A program made the position numbers and the translations under genes. The notes under the pieces are model-generated. The model was not told where the DNA came from, did no database searches, and saw nothing but the letters and a program-made list of their open reading frames with translations. Positions 37,381-43,852 of a DNA stretch of 64,000 bases are shown piece after piece; position 1 is the first letter of the stretch, and each line of letters opens with the position of its first letter. The stretch is from Nitrospirales bacterium (GTDB taxonomy: Bacteria; Nitrospirota; Nitrospiria; Nitrospirales; UBA8639), in contig JALDRJ010000002.1 in the NCBI GenBank assembly GCA_031315865.1, positions 2,950,001 to 3,014,000 on the forward strand. Direction: 5' to 3'.

Positions 37381-37585
37381 GGGTCAAGTCTTTTGTTGAT
37401 ATATTATTGATTGATCGTTTCGTAGGTATTGTCCTCCTCAAGCTTGAACAAGGGCACCGTTCCGAGAACAAGCAGACCTTCGCCTTTGAGCCACATGAAC
37501 TTGTTAACGTATCAGGGCCTCTCATTCCATCAAAGCGGCTGAGCTTCCACGGGTAGGGGAAAATATATCAACAAAAGACTTGATC
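37381..37585. repeat. MITE-like inverted-repeat element, copy 1 (205 bp)
   Basis: The left end GGTCAAGTCTTTTGTTGAT (37382 onward) is matched by an inverted right end ATCAACAAAAGACTTGATC (37567-37585), giving terminal inverted repeats of about 24 bp with one mismatch. The interior carries no transposase. It is nearly identical to the element at 41489-41696. The left end sits in the tail of the degraded antitoxin gene. Confidence 0.75.
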
Positions 37586-37594
37586 TATATCCGT

Positions 37595-37700
37595 GCTCTC
37601 TGTGCCTCCAAGTGGTCCAGGGCGGGAAAGGACAATGGTAGCTGGAACTGTCGAGGGAAAATACACTAACAAAAGATTTGACCCGTATTTCGTATTCGTA
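37595..37700. repeat. second repeat segment ending in the same element end
   Basis: This roughly 100 bp segment runs from CTCTCTGTGCCTCC to the end AACAAAAGATTTGACCC (37668-37684) and a GTATTCGTATTC-like tract. It is clearly homologous to 43156-43257. Its terminal motif is the same as the right end of the 205 bp element, so it appears to be the right half of a related, differently sized element. Confidence 0.6.
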
Positions 37701-37709
37701 TTCAGAACG

Positions 37710-37832
37710 ATGTCGTGGCAACAGGCTAAAGAGGCGGTGGACCATCTTAATAATCGGCCGAGGAAAACACGGGGGTATTGCACCCCCAATCAGCTCTTCC
37801 ACAATCACTTCGTCCCACTCGTGGAAAAATAA
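37710..37832 (+). pseudogene. C-terminal remnant of an IS30-family transposase
   Basis: Forty codons in the plus strand encode the conserved end of IS30-type transposases: WQQAKEAVDHLNNRPRKTRG followed by TPNQLF and a natural stop at 37830. The catalytic DDE core and the element ends are absent. The fragment lies directly next to a repeat end at 37684. Confidence 0.72.
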
Positions 37833-37869: not shown

Positions 37870-38466
37870 TCACTGTAAGATTGGGGAAAATCTTGCTCCA
37901 TATGTCTCTTTATTTTTGTAAAAAAACGGAAGTGATCGAAGATGATCAACAACCTCAACAATGATGTTAAGAGACCCGTCAGTATTTTTATAATAAATGT
38001 TCTTAATTATACTTTTCCCAGATACTGCTTCCCCATATGCATCTCGCATTCGAACCTGAACAATCTTTCCCTTTGTGCATCCAATCTTATCTAGTGGGTT
38101 TTCAGGAACAATTAGTGTCTGCTCGATGGAATCTCCCTTAAAAACGGCTTGAATTTTTTCTCCTTGAATTACTTCGACCGTTTTAATGGTTTTTCGATTT
38201 TCAGGCAATTTATTTGGCCACAACAAAAGATCCAATGCCAACGCCATGTTCATTCCTCGCCAATCGCTGGGCATGCCCGACAAAGGAGTACCAATAAACT
38301 TATACGTGCCTGTGATAGTTGGACATGTGTCAATTGGTGATTCAATCTGAAGTAATTTCTCTTTTAATGTAGTCTTTGGAGAACCTGCACAGCTCAGCAG
38401 AATAGACACATACACAATCCCTAAAATTAAATTATTCCTAATCAGAGTAGTGTCTGAAAGCTTCAT
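37870..38466 (-). CDS. lipoprotein, candidate immunity protein of Rhs module C
   Basis: An AAGGA-type ribosome binding site precedes the ATG. The N-terminus carries a lipobox (LLSC, near residue 26), then a soluble domain of about 170 residues with four or five further cysteines and charged beta-rich stretches. No family is recognised, and it is not similar to the other two lipoproteins of the island. The Rhs-tip gene ends 19 bp upstream on the same strand. Immunity is inferred from this toxin-then-lipoprotein order, repeated in the two other modules. Confidence 0.6.
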   Translation of the reverse strand: MKLSDTTLIRNNLILGIVYVSILLSCAGSPKTTLKEKLLQIESPIDTCPTITGTYKFIGTPLSGMPSDWRGMNMALALDLLLWPNKLPENRKTIKTVEVIQGEKIQAVFKGDSIEQTLIVPENPLDKIGCTKGKIVQVRMRDAYGEAVSGKSIIKNIYYKNTDGSLNIIVEVVDHLRSLPFFYKNKETYGARFSPILQ

Positions 38467-38485
38467 TATCCTTAAGATTTAACTA

Positions 38486-39739
38486 TTATCGCCCCAATAG
38501 TGGGATATAAGCAGAACTCGGAATAACTGATGCCGCGACAAAAGGTGTTGCGACAAGAACGTTAGCTGCGCTGTAAACTTCACCAAACCCATCGAGAAAC
38601 TTACCATATAGACTTCCTTGAGCGAGGAAATCTTTTGCATTTCCGAAAGCAGTATACCAATAAGGACTATTTAGAAAATCATGGGGCCCGGCATAGGCTT
38701 CAGCGAACAGATCTGCAAATGAACCAGGTCCATAGGGTATTCCAAATATAGATCCTTTACCCCCTTGGACACCTCCAAGTGGCGAAGGACGCTGTGCCGC
38801 ACAATCCACTGCAACAATGCAACGTCCTCCTGCTAGTTTTCGGCCATCTCCCCTAAACCTCGCACTTGTTCCACTGCTATTGTTGGGATTTACTTCAGAT
38901 TGTGCAAGCATAGTTTCTCGCATTTTAATGGCTGCAACAGATAGGCTTTTTGTCCCAGCAGAAATGGCAAACCCTTTAACAAAACTTCCACCCTGCAATT
39001 CAGCTGACGTGCCTCCTATGACACCATGAGCAGCAATGCCAGATACACTGTCGCCTAGGTAGAGGTCAGCTTGTCCAAATGCATATGCCGTTCCACCGGC
39101 TATGGCTCCTGCTTTGATTACATCTCCGAACGATCCACCATCTAATCGAGTGGTGTACGCGGCAAAACCCGTCGCCGCTACAGGGCCAAAATATGAAGCA
39201 GCTGCCGCCCCTACCATCCGTGCATAGGGTCCGATCGTAGGATTCGTTAAGGCGTAGTCAATCGCAATCGTACTAGGATTCCAATAATGTCGATATTTCC
39301 ATCCTGCCTTTTCAAATTTTTTGAAGGCCTTCTTAATACTTTTAAACTGTTTCTTAAAGAAGTGCCCTGATGGATTGGTAAAAAGAATCGGATTATTTCT
39401 CGCATAGCTATACCGATTAAGAGCTTGGGGGTCGGTGACACTGGGGACAATGGTATCGGCTGAAATGAATCGGCCCAGGTCAGGATCATAATATCGGGCT
39501 TCGTAGAAGTAGAGTCCGGTGGAATCATCCAGCTCTTTCCCCGTGTACTTGTAGGCGACATCGGCTCCGCTCGTACCTCCAGCCGTGTAGCTCCAGGAAA
39601 ACGTTACGGTTGCTCCCGAGAGAACACTAGTGGCAGCGGGGGTGATGCTGGTAGAAGCCGGTCCGCTATGGGAAACCAAACGCACCAGCGGATTCGCTTG
39701 CCTAGGCTCCAGTTGTGGGAGCTCAAAACGCAGACTCAA
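38486..39739 (-). CDS. truncated Rhs-family protein with C-terminal tip (module C)
   Basis: The protein holds the last Rhs core repeat and its hallmark: YTGKELDDSTGLYFYEARYY, then DLGRFISADTI and NRYSYARNNPILFTNPSGH. A roughly 290-residue variable tip follows. The large Rhs cage upstream is missing, and a stop at 39782-39784 and a repeat end at 39833 bound the fragment. The start would be TTG 39739. Rhs cores display polymorphic C-terminal toxins. The tip has two cysteines (GGRCIVAVDC) and a GPHDFLNS motif reminiscent of the HDW motif in the other two tips. It is probably an orphan tip; activity is unknown. Confidence 0.8.
   Translation of the reverse strand: MSLRFELPQLEPRQANPLVRLVSHSGPASTSITPAATSVLSGATVTFSWSYTAGGTSGADVAYKYTGKELDDSTGLYFYEARYYDPDLGRFISADTIVPSVTDPQALNRYSYARNNPILFTNPSGHFFKKQFKSIKKAFKKFEKAGWKYRHYWNPSTIAIDYALTNPTIGPYARMVGAAAASYFGPVAATGFAAYTTRLDGGSFGDVIKAGAIAGGTAYAFGQADLYLGDSVSGIAAHGVIGGTSAELQGGSFVKGFAISAGTKSLSVAAIKMRETMLAQSEVNPNNSSGTSARFRGDGRKLAGGRCIVAVDCAAQRPSPLGGVQGGKGSIFGIPYGPGSFADLFAEAYAGPHDFLNSPYWYTAFGNAKDFLAQGSLYGKFLDGFGEVYSAANVLVATPFVAASVIPSSAYIPLLGR
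38988..39102. repeat. 115 bp Rhs segment duplicated at 41369-41482 (copy 1)
   Basis: By reading, this stretch is identical to 41369-41482 apart from one base missing in the other copy. It encodes the tip-proximal AGGTAYAFGQADLYLGDSVS and GGTSAELQGGSF region, upstream of the variable tip. Such conserved junctions are where Rhs tips are exchanged. Confidence 0.85.
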
Positions 39740-40156
39740 GAGGCCTCCACCGAAACCGTGGGTGAAGGCCCAAGGGGCGAATCATAAGAGCGAATCACAT
39801 CATTGGACCATCTGTCTGAGTAGAAAAAATCTAACAAAAGATTTGACCTGTATTTCCCGTATTCCTGTGTTCATTCAGGAAGCCATTGCATTCCACTGAG
39901 AAGGTCTTCAGGCCGATGGGCAACCAGTCCCCTGTGCGAACAGGCAGGTAGACTATGTGGGAGTGTCAGTCTAATCGTTGCCTGCTTCATTCGTTCCCAA
40001 AGTTCTTAAAAGTATGAAGTCAAGCAATGACCCTCATTGTGACCCCCATTGTATTCTATTCCTAACAAAAGGCTTGATCGGTATTCGTATTTTAGGATTT
40101 CACTAGACAGAACCTGCGAATGGATGACCTCTAATCAAGTTCCAACAGAATCCGCA
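39740..40156. other. non-coding spacer with two solo repeat ends
   Basis: Between modules C and A there is no convincing gene. The spacer holds repeat ends AACAAAAGATTTGACC at 39833-39848 and AACAAAAGGCTTGATC at 40064-40079, both in the same orientation. Each is followed by a GTATT-type tract. They do not form an inverted pair with one another. Confidence 0.5.
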
Positions 40157-40840
40157 CTACAACACCCCATCTGCATGTGATTGAGCAAGAAACTGATGAA
40201 AAGTAGTGGCTAAAGCATCTTCACGGCTATCCGTAAATGCATTCAACCACACAAATGGTAATAGCAGAATCCAGTATGCCCCTATCTGTTTATACTGATA
40301 AGTATACCGTTTTTTAAAAGTACCTTTTATATAGACGGTATATTCTACGTCATGGACGCTTAAAGTTCCGTAACAGGGTATTATTCCACCTGTCATCCAA
40401 GAAACTTCACACCACCCTTGATGACCGTAGGAGCCTGCATAATCGTAGCGAAGTGTAATTTTAACAAGACGCTCAGGAGAACCCAGTAAACCATTGTCAA
40501 TGATTGGAGTATACAAAGGAAGTTTCTCTAGATTTCTTTGAAGTACATCATATTCCCAAGCAGATGGGGAAACATCAAGCTCACTTGAAGGTTGAGTTAC
40601 GTGCTCCTTATCAAGTGAACGTTTGATATGCACAAGTAGAGGCTGCTGAGTTGTTTTTAAAGGATATTCATCCGTAACATCATCCACGACCGGATGGTAA
40701 GTCGTTATCATACAAGAGCTCAAACAAAACGACGATATCAATACGTACCTCAACAGAGATAGCTTCATTTGAAGCCATGGAAATCGGGAAATTGTGTGAA
40801 TGACCGTATGTCTGTTGAATAGCCTAACAATCCACTTCAT
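40157..40840 (-). CDS. lipoprotein, candidate immunity protein of Rhs module A
   Basis: The first ATG (40840) overlaps the stop of the tip gene as ATGA. An internal ATG at 40768 begins directly with a lipoprotein signal (MKLSLLRYVLISSFCLSSC), and either may be used. The mature protein shares a long list of blocks with the lipoprotein at 41786: CMITTYHPV, YDYAGSYGHQGWCEV, IIPCYGTLSVHDVEY, AYWILLLPFVWLNAFTDSR, EDALATTFHQF. The hydrophobic block near the C-terminus may insert in or touch the membrane. Paralogy and the same position behind a paralogous tip support an immunity role. The gene is visibly AT-richer than the core genes. Confidence 0.65.
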   Translation of the reverse strand: MKWIVRLFNRHTVIHTISRFPWLQMKLSLLRYVLISSFCLSSCMITTYHPVVDDVTDEYPLKTTQQPLLVHIKRSLDKEHVTQPSSELDVSPSAWEYDVLQRNLEKLPLYTPIIDNGLLGSPERLVKITLRYDYAGSYGHQGWCEVSWMTGGIIPCYGTLSVHDVEYTVYIKGTFKKRYTYQYKQIGAYWILLLPFVWLNAFTDSREDALATTFHQFLAQSHADGVL

Positions 40841-41379
40841 AGCAATTTCATCATTGTTAGTACTGTTGACCTGCTTTTTAAAAATCGCTTACTGATATCC
40901 ACAGTAACTGTATTTCCACTGAGTGCTGCTCCAGCAGTAACCGCCGCGCTGGGTATCATGGTTGGAAAATTATAGAGCAAATTGAATGCGTCATTACCTA
41001 GCCCACTTCCATATGGCATAAATTTTCCTTGATTATATGTTCCTGCAAGTTTTCCATTCACCCAGTCGTGTACTTGCCCAGTTGCTTCAATAAAATCATC
41101 CACAACAGGAATCCCATTCCACCAATGATCAGCTCGTACGGTAGGATTGCCCGGAACAAATTCTGGATCCATACCTATTTCCGCAAGTCCGGTCGCAGAA
41201 GTCATCGGTGCTGCCAGGGGTCTTGTCCCAGCAATGCAGAGTCCAAACCTGCACGTAGTTCGATTACCTGAATCGTAGGCACTCTTTTGTGTCCAGGCAC
41301 GTGCTGTACTCCAAAGAACTTTCATGCTTTTTGCGCTTGCTGCTGTAATAAATCCATTCTGAAAACTCCCACCCTGCAA
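40837..41379 (-). CDS. Rhs C-terminal tip fragment, module A
   Basis: The frame starts at a TTG in the LQGGSF motif of the Rhs junction and encodes about 150 residues of tip. Upstream, the same junction continues to 41482 but is frameshifted by a single missing base at about 41412, so the fragment has lost its Rhs body. The tip shares with module B the blocks GLCIAGT/GLCTDGT, GLAEIG/GLAELG, NGIPVVDDFIEAT/NGIPVVDNFIQAT, VHDW, and the closing NFPTMIPSAA/NFGTMLPAAA. Catalytic residues are unknown; the conserved HD pair is a candidate. Translation may be coupled to the lipoprotein gene. It is an orphan fragment. Confidence 0.65.
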   Translation of the reverse strand: MQGGSFQNGFITAASAKSMKVLWSTARAWTQKSAYDSGNRTTCRFGLCIAGTRPLAAPMTSATGLAEIGMDPEFVPGNPTVRADHWWNGIPVVDDFIEATGQVHDWVNGKLAGTYNQGKFMPYGSGLGNDAFNLLYNFPTMIPSAAVTAGAALSGNTVTVDISKRFLKSRSTVLTMMKLL

Positions 41380-41482
41380 TTCAGCTGACGTGCCTCCTAT
41401 GACACCATGAGCGCAATGCCAGATACACTGTCGCCTAGGTAGAGGTCAGCTTGTCCAAATGCATATGCCGTTCCACCGGCTA
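41369..41482. repeat. 114 bp Rhs junction duplication (copy 2), cut by repeat element
   Basis: This is the second copy of 38988-39102. One A is missing (GAGCGCAATG versus GAGCAGCAATG), which shifts the frame. Homology stops within about 7 bp of the left end of the inverted-repeat element at 41489, so the element marks the breakpoint. Confidence 0.85.
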
Positions 41483-41488
41483 GGAAGA

Positions 41489-41696
41489 GGGTCAAATCTT
41501 TTGTTGGTATATTCTTGATTGATCGTTTCGTAGGTATTGTCCTCCTCAAGCTTGAACAAGGGCACCGTTCCGAGAACAAGCAGACCTTCGCCTTTGAGCC
41601 ACATGAACTTGTTACCGTATCACAGTTTCCCTCATTCCATTAAAGCGGTCGAGCTTCAACTGTCAAGGGAAAATATAACAACAAAAGACTAGACCC
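41489..41696. repeat. MITE-like inverted-repeat element, copy 2 (208 bp)
   Basis: The left end GGTCAAATCTTTTGTTGG and the right end ACAACAAAAGACTAGACC bound an interior nearly identical to that of copy 1 at 37381-37585, including the tract from GATTGATCGTTTCGTAGG to GAACTTGTTA. It carries no transposase. It separates module A from module B. Confidence 0.75.
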
Positions 41697-41785
41697 CTAT
41701 TTAAAAATTAGAATGTCCCTCACTTAAAAAAAAGGGCTGCCCTAGATAATGGGAGTTATGTTAGGAGAGCCTCAAAAAAATATAA

Positions 41786-42442
41786 TCAAAACAATCTGTC
41801 CTGTTTTGCTTCGTTGAAAAATCGGGATACCGTATCAGCTAGAGCATCTTCCCGACCGTCAGTGAAAAGGTTAATCCATGAGAAAGGGAGCAATCCTATC
41901 CAGTAGGCTCCTTTTCCTGCATAGCGATAATGATACTTTCGCTGAAGGACCCCATCTATGTAGAGACCATATTCTACATGATGGACTGACAGGTCCCCAT
42001 AACAGGGGATAATTGCTAATGTCATAAAAGTCACCTCACACCATCCTTTATGACTGTAAGAGGACTCATAATCATAAGACAAGACAATGTTAATGAAGAT
42101 TTGAGATTGTTGTAATTCGCTTGCTTCAATTAGTGACTTCGCAGGGGAAGAATGATCCAAGGCGTTCCTCAGCGTATGATAATCTTCATCAGTTGGAGGT
42201 AAAATTTTTTCCATATTAACTTTGCCGACTCCGATGACGGCATTTCTTTCTTTTTCATATGAACGTTTTATAACAAAATATAATGACTCTAAGGTTTTCT
42301 CTTGAGGAATGATACTATTTCGATTTTTGTTAACTGGTTGATAACTTACAATCATACAGGAGGAGGAACTCAACAAAATCATCGACACAAGCCATCCACC
42401 AAGTACCGTGCCTAAAGCATAGGATGGCCGTCCAATCTTCAC
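41786..42442 (-). CDS. lipoprotein, candidate immunity protein of Rhs module B
   Basis: The N-terminal signal has the lipobox SSSC near residue 29, followed by MIVSYQPV. It is a clear paralogue of the lipoprotein at 40157: YDYESSYSHKGWCEV, IIPCYGDLSVHHVEY, AYWIGLLPFSWINLFTDGR and EDALADTVSRFF all align. The region between the lipobox and the first shared block differs strongly. It lies 68 bp downstream of the module B tip. The sequence is distinctly AT-rich. Immunity against the cognate tip is inferred from gene order and paired divergence. Confidence 0.65.
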   Translation of the reverse strand: MKIGRPSYALGTVLGGWLVSMILLSSSSCMIVSYQPVNKNRNSIIPQEKTLESLYFVIKRSYEKERNAVIGVGKVNMEKILPPTDEDYHTLRNALDHSSPAKSLIEASELQQSQIFINIVLSYDYESSYSHKGWCEVTFMTLAIIPCYGDLSVHHVEYGLYIDGVLQRKYHYRYAGKGAYWIGLLPFSWINLFTDGREDALADTVSRFFNEAKQDRLF

Positions 42443-42510
42443 AACTTTTCTTCCTACAATAAAAATAAAACCGCAAGAACTAACTTATTACCCTATTGCT
42501 CCTGGCTATA

Positions 42511-42996
42511 TTATTTGATCATCCTCGCTGCATCAACCGCTGCAGCATTACCACTTGCCATCGCCCCGGCCGTATATGCAGCGGCAGGAAGCATCGTGCC
42601 AAAGTTTCCAAAAACATTGAAGGCAGCCTCACCACCCGCTGTCCCGAATGGGATATAGGTTCCTTGAGCGGTGTACCTACCTAATGCTGACCCGATAAAC
42701 CAATCATGGACTTTGGAAGTTGCCTGAATAAAGTTATCTACAACAGGGATGCCATTGTAGATATGATTTCCCCTAATCACAGCACCGCCAATTATTTCAA
42801 ATTGTGGTTCCTGACCCAACTCCGCCAATCCTAGTAGATCTTTTTTTAGGGCACCATCACCGCTCTCAATTGGTATTGTTCCATCGGTGCATAGGCCCAT
42901 TCCACAGTTTGTAGTATTTCCAGGGCCTGCATGTAACAGGGGCAAGTCTTTTGTTAATGTATTCTTAATCGACTGTTTGGTCTTTCTCGCTTGCAT
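42511..42996 (-). CDS. Rhs C-terminal tip fragment, module B
   Basis: About 140 residues align with the tip of module A: GLCTDGT, GLAELGQEPQF, NGIPVVDNFIQAT, KVHDWFIGS, TYIPFG, NFGTMLPAAAYTAGA. No Rhs core is present. The first 20 residues (KQSIKNTLTKDL) are encoded by the end of an inverted repeat at 42939-42966, which supplies an ATG and leads in frame into the tip. This is either fortuitous or a small fusion that keeps the tip translatable. Function is unknown. Confidence 0.62.
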   Translation of the reverse strand: MQARKTKQSIKNTLTKDLPLLHAGPGNTTNCGMGLCTDGTIPIESGDGALKKDLLGLAELGQEPQFEIIGGAVIRGNHIYNGIPVVDNFIQATSKVHDWFIGSALGRYTAQGTYIPFGTAGGEAAFNVFGNFGTMLPAAAYTAGAMASGNAAAVDAARMIK

Positions 42997-43643
<647 letters not shown>

Positions 43644-43705
43644 TACAAAGTGAGGACACGGCTAATTTAATGAATACCGGACGCGATTGTCCGACGGTCT
43701 GCTCG

Positions 43706-43852
43706 ATGCCGCAATATGGGCGACTCCATGTCATCGGTGGATGTTATCACATCATGGGCCGCGCCTTGGAGTGGTGTCGCCGGACTCAGTTTCTAGTCGT
43801 CTATATGAAAACAGAATGTTCAGGACTGTTGAATGACTTTAGTGATGCTTAG
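43706..43852 (+). pseudogene. N-terminal remnant of a REP-associated (Y1/IS200-like) transposase
   Basis: The first 20 residues (MPQYGRLHVIGGCYHIMGRA) match the typical start of RAYT transposases, including the HxxxxxYHIMGR pattern. The next residues lose similarity. The +1 frame reads SSRLYENR, as expected for the same family, so a frameshift is likely. The catalytic HUH and tyrosine regions are absent. It is a candidate source of the palindromic repeats nearby, but that is a guess. Confidence 0.55.

Follow-up and report, generated by a model that had tools for sequence, protein, structure and literature searches.

Orphan Rhs tip and lipoprotein modules in a Nitrospirales genome: a probable decayed toxin/immunity array with a tip family that also occurs on complete Rhs and CdiA proteins

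What are three small gene pairs that follow one another in a Nitrospirales genome, when only one of them still carries a piece of an Rhs protein? We addressed this question in a window of 64,000 nucleotides (Nitrospirales bacterium, UBA8639 lineage, assembly GCA_031315865.1, contig JALDRJ010000002.1, positions 2,950,001 to 3,014,000), in which an initial annotation had described an array of three Rhs-tip/lipoprotein modules, likened to orphan rhs-CT/immunity arrays, each consisting of a C-terminal toxin region (tip) and a lipoprotein gene. That description held up: tip C terminates a full-length Rhs protein in a sister species, and tip A stands behind an Rhs linker. We consider it fairly probable, from sequence comparison, that the three units are orphan C-terminal Rhs toxin/immunity modules left after their Rhs bodies were lost, encoding predicted toxins that act in the cell envelope and lipoproteins that confer immunity. 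At least tip C belongs to an apparently unnamed toxin family that also caps complete Rhs and CdiA proteins of many other bacteria.

All six open reading frames (ORFs) were verified at 37870-42996, on the annotated strand and coordinates. They are given here in the order of transcription, which places a small gene directly 3' of each tip:

42511-42996, minus strand: tip B, orphan; ORF, 50% identity with tip A, tip C family profile matched weakly
41786-42442, minus strand: lipoprotein B, probable immunity protein; ORF, 43% identical to lipoprotein A, LIC12231-like below cut-off, borderline lipobox SSSC
40837-41379, minus strand: tip A, orphan; ORF, 50% identity with tip B, tip C family profile matched weakly
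40157-40840, minus strand: lipoprotein A, probable immunity protein; ORF, lipobox LSSC, LIC12231-like below cut-off
38486-39739, minus strand: Rhs tail with core (about 39362-39571), linker and tip C (38495-38923); TIGR03696, E 2.4e-21, tip profile E 1.4e-52
37870-38466, minus strand: lipoprotein C, probable immunity protein; lipobox LLSC, 50% identical to the gene behind a full-length Rhs of a sister genome

The paralogy of tips A and B and of lipoproteins A and B, proposed in the initial annotation, was borne out by the identities listed. The lipoprotein A start overlaps the tip A stop. None of the lipoprotein ORFs is interrupted or shortened, and each product has a hydrophobic N-terminus followed by a cysteine, within a canonical lipobox in A and C. 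The lipoprotein genes have a G+C content of 38-40% and the tips and core 45-49%, with third-position G+C of the array genes below that of neighbouring genes; such deviation is a frequent trait of acquired genes. Searches of the six proteins against Pfam, NCBIfam, PHROGs and PADLOC returned nothing beyond the Rhs core and LIC12231-like matches; tip B matched PADLOC Cas10b over 39 residues (E 0.003), which was taken as chance.

As the initial annotation had it, an Rhs core end is present in C (RHS repeat-associated core) and absent from A and B. C is a truncated Rhs tail with an open frame of 431 amino acids (aa). The claim that the modules lack Rhs bodies stood for all three, except that A retains 121 nt of C's Rhs linker. 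This copy and the repeat elements at the module borders are as follows:

41362-41482, minus strand: displaced copy of C's post-core Rhs linker, 5' of tip A; matches 39102-38981 at 120 of 121 bases, with a 1-nt deletion besides
41489-41695, strand unassigned: element at the 5' border of module A, resembling a miniature inverted-repeat transposable element (MITE) and with inverted ends of the GGTCAARTCTTTTGTT type; repeat comparison and motif
37381-37586, strand unassigned: second copy of the MITE-like element, sharing 97% identity with the copy at 41483 over 140 nt; alignment
42943-43254, minus strand: repeat element with GGGCAAGTCTTTTGTT end, border cutting the 5' end of tip B; similar 317-nt copy at locus L013:2188-2502, motif

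Since C's post-core linker is copied before tip A, tips A and C are preceded by one and the same Rhs linker; in A, the 1-nt deletion shifts the frame. The linker match ends at 41482, where the MITE-like element begins, and about 18 codons at the start of tip B's ORF fall inside the repeat element at 42943-43254, whose 317-nt copy adjoins another Rhs tail at 3.756 Mb. A 16-nt repeat end occurs at 31 sites in the genome (at most 1 mismatch), compared with 1 for a reversed control pattern; 8 of the 31 lie within 5.6 kb at the array, and one, at 2120470, precedes a Y1 transposase gene of the type associated with repetitive extragenic palindromes (RAYT). The repeat is species-specific; its end is nearly absent from sister genomes. 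Other clusters of it were considered as further toxin arrays and rejected, as their genes were ordinary or toxin-antitoxin-like, with no Rhs core. As a separate observation, the MITE-like element with GGTCAARTCTTTTGTT ends clusters at Rhs tails and is also found near toxin-antitoxin-like genes.

The window's genome (G000) is near-closed, with 98% completeness on two contigs, of which one measures 3.77 Mb. Searches with Rhs core and RHS repeat profiles found no full-length Rhs in it: the core profile matched four places with every open frame at most 431 aa, the repeat profile matched one short ORF only, and the other Rhs tails are also fragments. VipB/TssC (PF05943), a type VI secretion marker and the only export marker searched for, was not found either. 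The sister genome G204 encodes VipB and four Rhs frames, 2170-2755 aa long. We infer that in the window's species the Rhs carrier was lost or became broken. By the same single marker, the setting expected of a type VI-delivered Rhs effector is present in G204 and missing in G000. The array is probably an orphan rhs-CT/immunity cluster, decayed in that all three modules have lost the Rhs body. Elsewhere in the genome (L012:15959-17894, about 3.751 Mb), an interrupted Rhs tail ends in a metallopeptidase-like tip containing HEQAH, followed by a small lipoprotein gene; the same tip and lipoprotein pair occurs in a second sister genome, G398 (L118:2557-4886).

The initial annotation had proposed looking for tip homologues on intact Rhs or other secreted proteins, and for tip C these were found, with lipoprotein genes behind them. 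In G204, an Rhs frame of 2505 aa ends in a tip 61% identical to tip C, and the gene behind it is the relative of lipoprotein C listed above (this locus and L060, from a Nitrospirales metagenome-assembled genome, were counted as one place). The same pair occurs in another family of the order (L112), with a partner 28% identical to lipoprotein C. Across 84,980 species, 21 loci of the tip C family were found, including the near-duplicates L071 and L072; this number is a lower bound, because the scan required an exact match to a short peptide pattern (EA[YF]AGPHD). The hosts span at least six phyla or proteobacterial classes (Nitrospirales, Desulfospira, alpha-, beta- and gammaproteobacteria, Mariprofundus, Omnitrophota, Sulfurovum and Arcobacteraceae), and the family is also present on Enterobacter and Campylobacter concisus plasmids. 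Pfam identified the carrier as Rhs (PF05593) in eight loci and as CdiA/FHA (PF13332) in six. No tip relative was found on viral contigs, and DNA of the Enterobacter plasmid tip had no match in E. coli genomes. On that plasmid (Enterobacter asburiae p152_2, L114:2530-3985), a stand-alone CdiA-CT-like gene of the family sits downstream of a hemagglutinin-repeat gene and has a lipoprotein gene behind it, a counterpart of the array in contact-dependent growth inhibition (CDI).

Directly downstream of the tip there is nearly always a gene for a small lipoprotein or secreted protein, from several unrelated families. In 20 loci, a downstream gene starts -11 to +36 nt from the tip end. Under one strict rule, 17 of 23 partners, counting the three of the window, had a lipobox-like signal, as did 7 of 111 control ORFs, a contrast that is somewhat inflated because partner starts were picked partly by their hydrophobic N-terminus. 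By BLAST, the partners form at least three mutually unrelated families besides singletons, and the eight tested had no convincing Pfam or NCBIfam match.

The tip C family had no match to Pfam or NCBIfam models (18 members had none in Pfam even at E 10), and the tip family alone had no sequence match in the PDB; a PDB search with A1 matched Rhs/Tc shells via the core. Tip C matches its own family profile (alignment A6, AGPHD region included) at the E value listed above. Invariant in the 18-member alignment, in tip C numbering, are M1, R2, G18, S20, K29, G32, R34, G50, Y64, D71, E75, A76, A78, G79, P80, H81, D82, Y90 and G94, an invariance that is partly by construction because some of these residues lie in the search pattern. 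They include a conserved stretch, D..xEA.AGPHD, with D71, E75, H81 and D82, after which a hydrophobic helix follows. We found no description of the family in the literature, although such motifs are barely searchable in text and a name may already exist. The suggestion of a new polymorphic toxin family is therefore sustained for tip C, whose family is absent from Pfam, NCBIfam and the PDB and occurs on intact Rhs and CdiA/FHA carriers that are followed by a lipoprotein, while for A and B it does not stand as stated.

Tips A and B are more distant. Paralogy of tip C with either is not obvious in pairwise comparison, but the tip C family profile aligns with both around HD, at 11.3 and 10.1 bits, where the best of about 4000 composition shuffles reached 8.4; they are probable distant members of the family. 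Apart from this weak link, no homologue of either was found outside this genome, and a genome scan with an A/B tip alignment was likewise empty; weak matches at L009-L011 proved to be unrelated genes, and matches of tip A to Paracoccus plasmids were weak and short. Lipoproteins A and B match the LIC12231 family (NF047816, E 1e-15 to 1e-17) at 64.7 and 57.7 bits, under the curated cut-off of 180, and a profile built from the two has relatives in 26 of 392 phylum genomes, the window's genome included. The initial annotation had held that the pairing would be accidental if the tips never occurred on secreted proteins or if the lipoproteins were equally often without a tip; for A and B this came half true, as no tip was seen beside such lipoproteins elsewhere among the neighbourhoods read. 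In favour of the A/B pairing are the similar divergence of the two paralogous pairs and the Rhs linker still joined to A; the relation to full-length Rhs proteins rests on homology for tip C and on this attached linker for tip A. LIC12231-like lipoproteins were seen in many genomes of the order and class (L082-L109), some as tandem pairs (L105/L108, L106/L109).

The array resembles the orphan rhs-CT/rhsI and cdiA-CT/cdiI modules described by Poole et al. (2011, PMC3150448), which lack start signals, retain a variable amount of carrier sequence and in several cases were shown to have toxicity and specific immunity: here, too, carrier-less tip fragments with a small immunity-like gene behind have homologues on full-length carriers. 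It differs in its tip family and lipoprotein partners, in that no full-length carrier is left in the genome, and in that the modules lie upstream of a core-bearing tail and are bordered by repeat ends. Relative to known orphan modules, the novelty lies in the tip family, in its lipoprotein partners and in the carrier having apparently been lost. Pairing with lipoproteins is shared with the Lipocone polymorphic toxins, whose immunity proteins are all membrane proteins or lipoproteins, from which action in the periplasm or at the membrane was argued (PMC12419801). However, the tip C family has no sequence (Pfam, PDB) or fold match to Lipocone, and its conserved E, H and D appear close together in a model of moderate confidence, unlike the three separate core helices of Lipocone.

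The cytoplasm is the site of action of many characterised CdiA and Rhs tips, most of the CDI ones being nucleases. We set aside a nuclease reading solely on account of the lipoprotein partners; because the partners are lipoproteins, the tips would be contact-delivered antibacterial toxins that act in the periplasm of the target or at its membrane, with the lipoproteins as their immunity proteins. Together with the hydrophobic helix, the stretch with D71, E75, H81 and D82 would fit an enzyme directed at the envelope better than a nuclease. In our ranking, an enzyme using D, E, H and D would come first and a membrane-inserting toxin second. We regard it as unlikely that the tips act by entering the membrane and dissipating its potential rather than by cleaving a substrate in the envelope. 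A hydrophobic stretch does follow the HD motif in nearly all members, and in tip C a long modelled helix (residues 105-133) covers the most hydrophobic part; CDI ionophore toxins, C-terminal CdiA tips with an entry domain and a five-helix bundle that act at the membrane and have polymorphic immunity proteins, are a precedent (PMC11630599). However, the most hydrophobic 19-residue windows score 1.0-1.9, below or around usual transmembrane values, the conserved polar residues look catalytic, the partners in the array are lipoproteins, and the tip C model does not form the five-helix bundle described for ionophores.

Several observations weigh against orphan toxin/immunity modules as the explanation of the whole array. 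The AlphaFold model of tip C is of moderate quality (predicted local distance difference test, pLDDT, 80; predicted template modelling score, pTM, 0.71), and Foldseek found no fold resembling it in the PDB. No partner gene was seen behind the tip at L063 and L066, the partner at L075 lacks a lipobox, that of lipoprotein B is non-canonical and borderline, and the lipobox contrast is inflated as noted. By hhalign, membership of tips A and B in the tip C family is weak (P 4.7e-4, probability 32%), and LIC12231-like lipoproteins are mostly without a tip elsewhere. The last point, together with the absence of close relatives of tips A and B elsewhere, would fit a true toxin/immunity module at C beside ordinary LIC12231-like envelope proteins that were brought behind Rhs fragments by rearrangement and do not confer immunity. 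We consider this decidedly unlikely, as the two pairs share gene order and a similar divergence in tip and lipoprotein, lipoprotein A overlaps its tip, and the other tip families seen all have a lipoprotein or secreted partner at the same place. It is somewhat unlikely that toxins and lipoproteins alike are debris without present function: the Rhs bodies are lost, the frame of A is shifted, repeat ends lie at the module borders, neither full-length Rhs nor VipB was found, and the other Rhs tails are fragments, yet the three lipoprotein ORFs remain open at full length, and E. coli EC93 makes an orphan CdiI though the orphan toxin is apparently not made (PMC3150448). Under the preferred explanation of orphan modules, the toxins would no longer be delivered in the window's species, while the lipoproteins, being intact, may still give protection from relatives with complete versions. 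The genome may show immunity genes outliving the weapon, which makes retained orphan immunity testable.

The repeats raise the question of how such modules move. The genes and fragment concerned are:

L060:7125-8075, L061:6796-7662, L070:7038-7901 and L116:3643-4209: RAYT-like (Y1) transposase genes; motif
43610-43849 of the window, plus strand: fragment like the N-terminus of a RAYT (Y1) transposase, beside module B; GGCYHIMG motif at 43736 compared with intact L116:3643-4209, motif match only

In L060, L061 and L070, the RAYT-like gene lies 0.7-0.95 kb behind the tip on the same strand, and the fourth, in G398, lies behind a different Rhs tip. Within 3 kb of tips, the motif was found four times downstream and never upstream (54 and 51 kb scanned), a post hoc, motif-based tally from few loci; G204 holds only two RAYT genes. 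In the literature searched, RAYT and rhs were not mentioned together. A route for tip exchange is hinted at by the repeat ends that border modules and by the RAYT genes found downstream of modules in three unrelated organisms. A broader proposal, that tips A, B and C and their homologues form an undescribed, widespread envelope-acting class on Rhs and CdiA, neutralised by several unrelated lipoproteins and moved as modules by RAYT-type (Y1) transposition at GGTCAARTCTTTTGTT-like ends, we regard as quite doubtful in its entirety. If tips of one family, paired with lipoproteins, are borne by both carriers in many lineages, they would represent a sizeable unexplored set of envelope-targeting antibacterial toxins.

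Among minor observations, the structure model of lipoprotein B (pLDDT 37) was not used. Beside the array, an ORF of 93 aa at 43362-43643 looks GIY-YIG-like by eye, without a Pfam match, and an open frame at 37593-37832 with NNRPRKTRGYCTPNQLF looks, also by eye, like the C-terminus of an IS30-type transposase.

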